A stretch of 64,000 nucleotides of DNA from Enchytraeus crypticus (lineage: Eukaryota > Annelida > Clitellata > Enchytraeida > Enchytraeidae). This document shows positions 16,921 through 38,043 of this stretch, piece after piece. The stretch's first letter is position 1. Each line of letters begins with the position of its first letter. The translations under genes were made by a program, and so were the position numbers. The notes under the pieces are model-generated. The model did not search any database. It saw only the letters and a program-made list of their open reading frames with translations, and was not told where the DNA came from. The stretch is taken from positions 512,001-576,000 of the forward strand of contig CAJHZI010000510.1 in NCBI GenBank assembly GCA_905160935.1. The letters are read 5' to 3'.

Positions 16921-19900
16921 ATGGGGAAAAGTCAGTCAAAGAAGTTTGATGTTCCCTCAGTTACGAATTCCCTTGAGTATGGATCATTTGAAAGAAATAG
17001 AAATGTGTCATCAAACTTGCCCACTAAGACCGCACCTACTGATTCTACTGAAGGCGGGGCTTCAACAATACAGGCCAATCAAACTCTGGATCCTACGTTA
17101 CAGACCACGCCTCCACTAACAGAAGCCACGCCTACTCAGCCTCCCCTAGCAGAGACCATGCCTACTCAGCCACCCCTAACAGAGACCACGTCTAGTCAGC
17201 CTCCCCTAACAGAGACCACGCCTACTCAGCCTCCCCTAACAGAGACCACGCCTACTCAGATAGATCCTACAGCAGAAACCACTTCCACTCATCCTACTGC
17301 AACAAAGACCAAACAAACCAAGTCTCCTACAAAAAAGACCAAACCTACTACGTCTCCTACAACAAAGGACAAACCTACTAAGTCTATTTCAAAGACCAAA
17401 CCTACAAAGTCTCCTTCAAAAACCAAGGAAAAACCTACTAAGTCCCCTGCAACAAAGGACAAATCTACAAAGTCTTCTACAACAAAAGCCACGCCTACTC
17501 AACCAGCAGACAGCGATGCCACTCACACTGATCCTGCGGTAGAGGAAGCCGCAGTCAATCTACCTGCAGCTACAGAAGTCACGCCCACTCAGTCTGCAGC
17601 CAAAGAAACCCCTCCTACTAAGCTTGCAAATGATTTGGGAAGTTCAGCAACAATAAATGAAACCACGCCTACACAGGCTGCCATGACAGCAGCTGACGCA
17701 GTGACAGCTGTCACTCAAAATACGCACACGGCTGACGAAGCAGCAGGTACAGACGGTACAGCTACTGTTGCTTCACCAGTAGCTGTGAAATCTACGCCTC
17801 CAAATGCTGTAGCTAAGCCCTGCACAGCTGACGTAGCGACGTTAACCGTATTTACAACTGAGGCAGCTACGGATACAGCTGATATAGCTACAGCAGCAGC
17901 TGTTGCCGCTCCATTATCAGCTGATGAGTCTCCAGTTAACATAGTACCTTCTCCTACAAAAGCTGCTGCTACTACTCTGACAGTTTGTACAGCTGATGCT
18001 GCCACAGAAGCGCCTAACGCTGATTCACTTGCAGCCGTTGCTTCAATTGCCGCTCCATCCCATGCTCGTGTTCTATCTACCGAAGTTGAAACATCTTGTT
18101 TAAAAGCTGATGCTTCACAGGTTAAAGCTGATGCTTCACAGGTTAAAGGCGATGTTTCACAGGTTAAAGCTGATGCTTCACAGGCTAAAGATGAAGCTTC
18201 ACAGGCTAACGCTGATGCTTCATCGATCAAGGCTGTCCCAGCTACAGAATCAAATTGTCAGACAGTGAGGAAGACTGTCAGAGTTCACACAATTAACACA
18301 GCCACGCGCCCTGCCGAAGATGTCGAAGTTGAAGAACAAGACGAAGCAAAGATCGAGGCCACGCTTTCAGCTGAACAAGAATTCATAAGAGGAAATGAAG
18401 AGAACATCTGTGCGGGCAAACCTCATCCAGGTTATACATACATACATACATACATATATATATATATATATATATATATATATATATATATATATATATA
18501 TATGTGTGTGTGTGTGTGTGTGTGTGTGTGTGTGTGTGTGTGTGTGTGTGTGTGTGTGTGTGTGTGTGTGTGTGTGTGTAAGTGTGTAAGTGTGTAAGTG
18601 TGTATGTATGTTATCTCATACATCAAGGTAATTTATTGGGTGTATTACAGGGAGCAATCAAGGTAATGTATTGGGTGTATTACAGGGAGCAATAAGGAGA
18701 ATGTATAGGGTGTATTACAGGGAGCAATCAAGGTAATGTATTGGGTGTATTACAGGGAGCAATAACGAGAATGTATTGGGTGTATTACAGGGAGCAATAA
18801 GGAGAATGTATAGGGTGTATTACAGGGAGCAATCAAGGTAATGTATTGGGTGTATTACAGAGAGCAATAAGGAGAATGTATTGGGTGTATTAGAGGGAGC
18901 AATAAGGAGAATGTATTGGGTGTATTACTGGAAGCAATTAGGAGAATGTATCGGGTGTATTACAGGGAGCAATAACGAGAATGTATTGGGTGTATTACAG
19001 GGAGCAATAAGGAGAATGTATAGGGTGTATTACAGGGAGCAATCAAGGTAATGTATTGGGTGTATTACAGAGAGCAATAAGGAGAATGTATTGGGTGTAT
19101 TACAGGGAGCAATAAGGAGAATGTATTGGGTGTATTAGAGGGAGCAATAAGGAGAATGTATTGGGTGTATTACAGGGAGCAATAACGAGAATGCATTGGG
19201 TGTATTACAGGGAGTAAGCTGTATGTAAGAATCCTGACTCCTCTAGATGGTGTGACGTTATCGAGGGTGGAACTGATGGATGTGATTATTTCACGAGATG
19301 GCGCCCAGTTGAACAGAAATCTGATTGGCGAGATCTCCTATCAGTTGGATCAGCGCATCGTTAGGTACGTCTTCAGGTGGCAGCCCGGTTACTTCGAGCA
19401 AGTCAAACAAGACTTCCACGTCAACAACCTGCTCAATCTACTCGTCAGGTACGATGATGATGATGATGGCGGTGATGGTGGTGATGATGATGTGGTGGTG
19501 ACGATGCAATGGTGATGATGTGATGATGATGATGCTGATGTGGTTGTGGTGGTGGTGATGATGATGTGATTATGATGATGTGATTGCGGTGGTGGTGATT
19601 ATTTGGGTGGTGGTGGAGATGATGATGTGGTGCTGATGATGATGGTGATGATGATAATGATGATGATGATGATGATGATGTGGTGGTGATGATGATGATG
19701 AATATGTCTACAGTGTAGTATCTGGTATTGAAATTGATTGATTGATCGCAGTGAATGCATTGACCCAGTGACTGGTATTGATCAATTGATTGATTGATCG
19801 CAGTGAATGCATTGACCCAGTGACTGGTATTGATCAATTGATTGATTGATCGCAGTGAATGCATTGACCCAGTGACTGGTATTGATCAATTGATTGATTG

Positions 19901-38043: not shown

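Follow-up and report, generated by a model that had tools for sequence, protein, structure and literature searches.

Minisatellite arrays at exon edges in the annelid Enchytraeus crypticus: placement, decoy splice sites, and a probable neutral origin

Three adjacent genes of the enchytraeid annelid Enchytraeus crypticus, SPATC1L, RABGGTB, and CCDC148, have been described from sequence as carrying at least nine tandem repeats that run across an exon edge or a stop codon. The question that this locus raises is whether minisatellites lie at the edges of exons more often than chance would place them there and, if so, what brings them to these positions. Arrays of this kind provide a natural test of how the spliceosome settles on a single edge when as many as 17 near-identical ones follow each other. 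They can also serve to ask whether the distribution of repeats along genes is set by mutation or by selection. We therefore rebuilt the gene models and measured the repeats in the window, by which we mean the whole 64,000-nucleotide stretch that was analysed (assembly GCA_905160935.1, contig CAJHZI010000510.1, positions 512,001 to 576,000), and repeated the measurement in independently chosen genes elsewhere in the assembly.

Exon edges and the repeats that cover them

The firmest gene model is that of RABGGTB, which lies on the minus strand at 22009..27399. Eight exons were located (22009-22146, 22557-22631, 23176-23264, 23494-23605, 24060-24170, 25009-25167, 26016-26213, and 27293-27399), and the N-terminal extreme lies outside the model. 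Residues 4 to 323 of the predicted protein align with residues 7 to 326 of 6o60_B, a solved RabGGTase beta structure, over 320 residues with zero gaps (E = 5.4e-162), indicating that the RABGGTB splice edges are exact. We take 6o60_B to be the mammalian protein. When its sequence was supplied to a spliced aligner together with splice matrices derived from the window, the same internal edges were chosen and none of the decoy copies described below was used. SPATC1L occupies 16919..20622 on the plus strand (exons to 18430, 19211-19448, 20104-20242, and 20425-20622), and its C-terminal 195 residues match Pfam Speriolin_C (E = 4.9e-22) up to the final profile position. The gene called CCDC148, with 11 exons on the minus strand at 30046..38043, gave an interrupted joined model, yet the exons that flank its donors at 37919 and 33902 join in phase. 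No Pfam family matched the CCDC148 and GOLIM4 pieces at the curated cut-off, and both names are those of the preliminary description, while the names B3GALT, C7orf25, and ARHGAP are backed by Pfam Galactosyl_T, DUF1308, and RhoGAP plus PH, respectively. The rebuilt models reproduced exactly the previously given exon ends at 25009, 24170, 23605, 22009, 37919, and 33902. A search of the window against Rfam at the gathering threshold gave zero matches.

Seven of the nine proposed edge and stop-codon repeats were clear by Tandem Repeats Finder (TRF) and by a scan for copies of each edge, and two, at 25009 and 33902, were weak, so that the original observation as a whole is partly confirmed. In SPATC1L, TRF delimits an array of a 35-nt unit at 18622..19214, over the intron 1 acceptor (exon start 19211); it holds 16 extra acceptor copies, 15 of them with AG, and includes just 4 exon nucleotides. 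The intron 2 acceptor (exon start 20104) is covered by an array of a 52-nt unit at 19722..20124, with 7 extra copies and 21 nt of exon. Around the stop codon at 20622, an array of a 44-nt unit (20589..20773) begins with a unit made of the final coding codons and the stop, followed by three degenerate units in the 3' flank; the three extra copies match 44, 37, and 34 of 48 positions.

The same arrangement is found at the end of RABGGTB (22009), where the first unit of an array at 21852..22054 (minus strand, unit of ~40 nt) encodes, in gene sense, the C-terminus and the stop, and the remainder lies in the 3' flank (three extra copies, matching 42, 40, and 32 of 46). Further into this gene, an array at 23585..23945 covers the acceptor at 23605 with 6 extra copies that include 21 nt of exon, corresponding to the conserved IYCC segment; the intron concerned measures 454 nt, and the array ends 114 nt from its donor. 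The acceptor at 24170 lies in a 95-nt duplication (24144..24334; 2.1 copies, one of them extra, and 27 nt of exon). The exon end and donor at 25009 fall in a low-complexity tract at 24747..25021, mostly CT/TG microsatellite, which contains one clear extra donor copy (33/34) 26 nt downstream. In CCDC148, the donor at 37919 is covered by a 23-nt-unit array at 37728..37935 that is divided into two blocks and contains 6 extra donors and 17 nt of exon. The repeat of the exon end and donor at 33902 is one lone copy rather than an array, displaced by 161 nt to 33715..33757 and 37/43 identical. Two further RABGGTB arrays stop just short of an acceptor: one of a 44/129-nt unit at 22640..23099, without exon sequence, ends 8 nt short of 22631, and one of a 39-nt unit at 25173..25330 ends 5 nt short of 25167 (all RABGGTB and CCDC148 features on the minus strand). 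The nine intron arrays of the window that touch an edge consist of head-to-tail units with TRF periods of 18 to 95.

The genes on either side had been reported to lack any comparable case. This holds for arrays that include exon sequence (0/11), but arrays adjoin exon edges there as well: on the minus strand, an array of a 44-nt unit at 375..650 lies 5 nt off the acceptor at 369 of the so-called GOLIM4 (exon 180-369) and includes no exon sequence, and on the plus strand an array of an 18-nt unit at 59289..59340 begins 2 nt behind the ARHGAP donor at 59286, right after its GT. The terminal TAA of the last ARHGAP open frame is the first of a (TAA)n run.

Array placement in the window and in independently chosen genes

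To evaluate placement, we compared the observed arrays with several null models. A per-base null showed no excess: the three genes have 40 splice edges, of which 7 lie inside local duplications, as against 33% of intron positions. We report this null but set it aside as the main test because every array inflates the length of its intron. Since each array started as one unit, we instead collapsed every array to a single unit, with corrected edges and an exon overlap limit of 50 nt (an earlier limit of 30 nt gave smaller P values). Tested in this way, the 26 arrays of six genes include 6 that extend at least 7 nt across an edge (1.9 expected, P = 0.009), a figure that falls to 4 against 1.8 expected (P = 0.095) when splice edges alone are considered, and 11 that come to within 10 nt of one (3.2 expected, P = 1.3e-4). 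For the three genes other than SPATC1L, RABGGTB, and CCDC148, the counts were 0/11 spanning and 2/11 touching (0.92 expected, P = 0.23). The strictest null, in which whole arrays slide within their own introns, gave 4 spanning arrays against 3.77 expected (P = 0.54) and 9 of 24 touching against 5.2 (P = 0.046). At donors no excess was seen in the window (3 arrays within 20 nt, 1.9 expected, P = 0.29). In the 300-nt 3' flanks, both of the two arrays found span a stop codon, which amounts to 2 of 5 stops. Taken alone, the edge excess in the window is suggestive only.

An independent sample was drawn from genes selected by homology. When the assembly, which comprises 524 Mb in 802 contigs, was queried with a kinesin motor sequence, 72 exon matches were obtained, and the loci of the best 30 were extracted. 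Spliced alignment yielded 70 introns, from which 25 were rejected for weak flanking alignment and 3 more for being shorter than 80 nt (one of these three has an array across both ends), leaving 42 introns on 18 contigs. These introns contain 22 minisatellites, 9 of which extend at least 7 nt across an edge, compared with 1.74 expected under the collapsed-unit null (P = 1.7e-5) and 3.66 under the slide null (P = 0.0045), so that 9 of 84 splice edges are covered. Arrays within 10 nt of an edge numbered 14 of 22 and occurred on 10 of the 18 contigs (collapsed-unit null, 2.87 expected, P = 3.5e-8; slide null, 5.07 expected, P = 2.2e-5). These counts enter one array shared by the paralogues C617 and C405 twice, while the pooled test below enters it once; both nulls treat the seeds as independent and uniform in placement, although 3 of the 14 touching arrays share one gene, C398. 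Two more genes, DLK-like and TTLL4-like, on the same contig as the window but outside it, contained 12 arrays (merged by hand from TRF rows), of which 8 come to within 10 nt of an edge, as opposed to 0.99 expected under the collapsed-unit null and 2.34 under the slide null (P = 2.6e-4). ATP6V0B was excluded before counting owing to poor alignment, and an ab initio exon finder was kept out of the counts; some of its predicted exons fall inside arrays.

When the window, the kinesins, and the DLK-like and TTLL4-like genes were pooled, 30 of 57 arrays, or roughly every second intron minisatellite in the sample, lay within 10 nt of an exon edge (12.4 expected under the slide null, P = 6e-8), a pattern that we did not find described in the literature searched. 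Array ends, counted over 46 arrays of the window and the kinesins, reach a density of 8 per 10 nt in the final 10 nt of the intron, in contrast to 0.4 to 0.8 at 100 to 400 nt. Outside the window the excess holds under both array nulls, in small samples from one assembly. The window was also ordinary in its overall content: array density per 10 kb was 6.1 in the window, 7.65 in the segment 18431-38043, and 7.3 and 7.2 in the two flanks, the left of which comprises 100,000 bases, 5,000 of them N. The local clustering that had been proposed for the three genes therefore has to be given up, since kinesin, DLK-like, and TTLL4-like genes carry edge arrays of the same kind and the array density of the window is like that of its flanks. 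The excess in the independent samples indicates a genome-wide feature.

The kinesin paralogues also allowed arrays at related edges to be compared. C617 and C405 share an array of a 41-nt unit that has 18 extra copies in one and 2 in the other (same scan, one assembly). A block comprising the exon and the edge array (L036 392-739 and L038 2140-2486) is 90% identical between them, while two other aligned blocks are ~80% identical, as if gene conversion linked to the array were homogenising it; it was in view of such conversion, or of shared descent, that the pooled test entered the array once. In the KIF5-like paralogues C122 and C142 (L031 and L032, around 1504), arrays lie over the same acceptor with units of 52 and 64 nt and different ends, which suggests that arrays may have originated repeatedly at one edge. 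Such arrays are also a risk for annotation: at C122 the aligner made a spurious short exon that overlaps the edge array.

Copied codons, decoy splice sites, and the origin of the arrays

We asked what the sequence of the arrays indicates about their history. Arrays within coding sequence had a period divisible by three at 7 of 7 loci, compared with 7 of 30 non-coding loci, at a score of at least 60 (P = 3e-4), and at a score of at least 40 the figures were 12/13 and 11/45. In-exon arrays of this kind lie at 291-350 (period 21), 2580-2720 (24), 17109-17499 (30), 18103-18222 (21), 46878-47039 (54), and 62314-62416 (18). Duplication therefore occurs in exons as well and is filtered there by selection. 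Codons for MNEHSSRSHS, a segment of the kinesin motor, are present in the intron arrays of C122 and C142 (read by eye). Because the exon-derived parts of the units encode conserved residues (MNEHSSRSHS here, IYCC in RABGGTB), the exon must predate the array, and the copying ran from its edge into the non-coding side.

The copy scan, with a threshold of at least 65% identity, was tried on 19 arrays; 17 gave copies and 2 gave none. In the 17 arrays, 102 of 113 decoy sites have an intact AG or GT. The dinucleotide columns of the decoys are as variable as the rest of the unit (7/34 variable columns versus 96/461, P = 1.0), and selection either to keep or to remove decoys is therefore not visible. 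In SPATC1L, RABGGTB, and CCDC148, 38 copies were examined, one of which lacks its AG, and each of them would truncate the protein if used. In a splice-matrix scan, 7 of 9 edge regions contained an AG or GT that scored no more than 1 bit below the real site, with matrices that included a few misplaced edges (C7orf25, ARHGAP 60404, and RABGGTB 27290). Since the decoys truncate while some AG or GT in these regions scores like the real site, we infer that the cell must pick the exon-joined edge by context, and the decoys are probably little used in RNA, as judged from sequence.

A functional reading, in which extra acceptors and donors compete with the real site or feed nonsense-mediated decay (NMD), tune expression, and are kept by selection, could draw on the high proportion of intact decoy dinucleotides, on the edge regions with an AG or GT that scores close to the real site, and on the early stop that each of the 38 copies would introduce, as NMD tuning requires. 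Neutral intron sequence would usually give early stops too, however, the dinucleotides change as often as the remaining columns, and the arrays at stop codons have no splicing role. We consider this reading improbable; splice competition and NMD tuning, which the preliminary description had offered as one alternative, find no support in the sequence. Less probable still is that the arrays merely cluster, by chance or locally, in a single repeat-rich region and were spotted post hoc. The spanning count of the window under the slide null and the per-base null, neither of which shows an excess, would fit such a cluster, but the excess recurs in genes chosen by homology rather than by their repeats, and array density in the window resembles that of its 200-kb surroundings.

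A further alternative, which we regard as doubtful though less so than selection on decoys, is that arrays are specifically initiated at exon edges, for example in connection with splicing, transcription, or the change in composition from exon to intron, so that introns grow from their ends. Consistent with this, the density of array ends near the edge is at least tenfold that at 100 to 400 nt inside, arrays of different unit lengths and ends lie over the same acceptor in the KIF5-like paralogues, and touching arrays number 21 at acceptors and 10 at donors, in a raw count that carries no significance test. Edge arrays in the window also differ from interior ones (GC 0.38 versus 0.26; median length 276 versus 137; longer units) and may have a separate origin. 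GC richness was considered as a driver and rejected: GC alone fails because the interior arrays have a lower GC content than the introns (0.258 versus 0.32). Against specific initiation, the distance of array ends from the splice site is not constant, with anything between 2 and 45 nt of exon included at splice edges, and this variability argues against an RNA-guided cut; moreover, the pattern recurs at two stop codons.

The account that we favour as the probable one is that these are neutral minisatellites, distributed genome-wide, that are seeded as short duplications where coding sequence borders on non-coding sequence. A short tandem duplication with a unit of ~12 to 95 nt would arise at this border, spanning or abutting the edge, and later copies would accumulate on the non-coding side. 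One intact edge would remain joined to the exon, and the gene would survive. Within exons, nearly only periods divisible by three would persist, while splice sites and stop codons would tolerate any period, and the extra splice sites would be by-products without detectable selection in either direction. The arrays are presumably young, and the duplications would be products of ordinary slippage or repair at the DNA level. A neutral reading had been put forward at the outset, as common slippage with survival of those duplications that keep one intact edge, and the period filter, the copied conserved codons, and the drift of the decoys all fit it. Survivorship alone, however, predicts no excess at edges over the intron interior, yet the excess exists, and the neutral account is to that extent incomplete; the initial interpretation is thus partly supported. 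The excess would then reflect a higher rate of starting at edges rather than a benefit. Edge arrays at stop codons, a border without splicing, suggest from two cases that the coding border matters and not splicing as such. We tentatively put forward, as a possibility less likely than the neutral account in general, that exon edges are a nursery of minisatellites in which the border starts duplications about 10 times more often than the intron interior, genome-wide. If so, introns and 3' flanks would grow outward from coding ends, multiplying splice sites and stop codons as they do.

Relation to known boundary repeats and other features of the window

The arrays had been said to belong to no described class, which is too strong, as tandem repeats at exon boundaries in human genes and the minisatellite donors of IFI6 precede them. 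For tandem repeats at exon-intron boundaries in genes of human segmental duplications, 27 intron modifications are reported, together with the capacity of such repeats to create new introns (PMC2812944). They resemble the arrays described here in their position and were found with the same program, but that survey, in its accessible parts, is limited to primate paralogues of recent origin whose repeats differ in copy number, whereas widely conserved genes, RABGGTB and KIF5-like kinesins for instance, are among the hosts here. An excess at edges over the intron interior, which we measured, is not mentioned in those parts. The IFI6 (G1P3, 6-16) minisatellite provides multiple splice donors (Turri et al. 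1995, as summarised in PMC4526556 and PMC2572611), and its units supply several donors in the manner of the CCDC148 array at 37919. According to these summaries it concerns a single human gene in which downstream units are reported as used donors, whereas the decoys here are known from sequence and acceptors are commoner.

The gain of introns through tandem duplication of an AG/GY proto-splice site within an exon (PMC2891723) is alike in that exon sequence and splice signals are copied side by side and that premature stops occur in the extra sequence. In that process, as far as the accessible text sets it out, the duplicated unit becomes the new intron and the donor resembles the acceptor, whereas here the introns are longer than the unit and the arrays lie at one end, so that the intron does not equal the duplicated unit. 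A literature search, mostly without subscription journals, gave no paper whose title or opening of the abstract concerned a genome-wide excess of minisatellites at exon edges, and the accessible parts of papers on earthworms and Plasmodiophora (PMC12783039 and PMC6823432) contained nothing on edge arrays in nuclear genes. Boundary repeats are thus known singly; of a genome-wide edge excess such as that measured here we found no report.

Several other features of the window were recorded. Retroelement remains with several open frames lie at 12110-14809 on the plus strand, with a reverse transcriptase domain that matches Pfam RVT_1 in 13649-14806 (E = 6.8e-20). An inverted repeat at 4931-5734 has 204-nt arms that are 90% complementary, and a second inverted repeat of 117 nt is nested in it. 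Beyond the gene models, an array at 44849-45510 contains ~25 copies of a 27-nt unit, some of them shortened to 18 nt. The last RABGGTB intron contains a palindrome at 22284-22381, consisting of two 49-nt arms that are 92% complementary with no spacer, which is perhaps a small mobile element. Reading by eye revealed a dispersed repeat with a terminal TGTTGTCATTGATGACTGTAGCACT-like core at 28510-28600, 29430-29510, 54250-54330, and other positions, and cores similar to TGTTGTCATTGATGACTGTAGCACT were also seen by eye within the arrays at 24144 and 25173.
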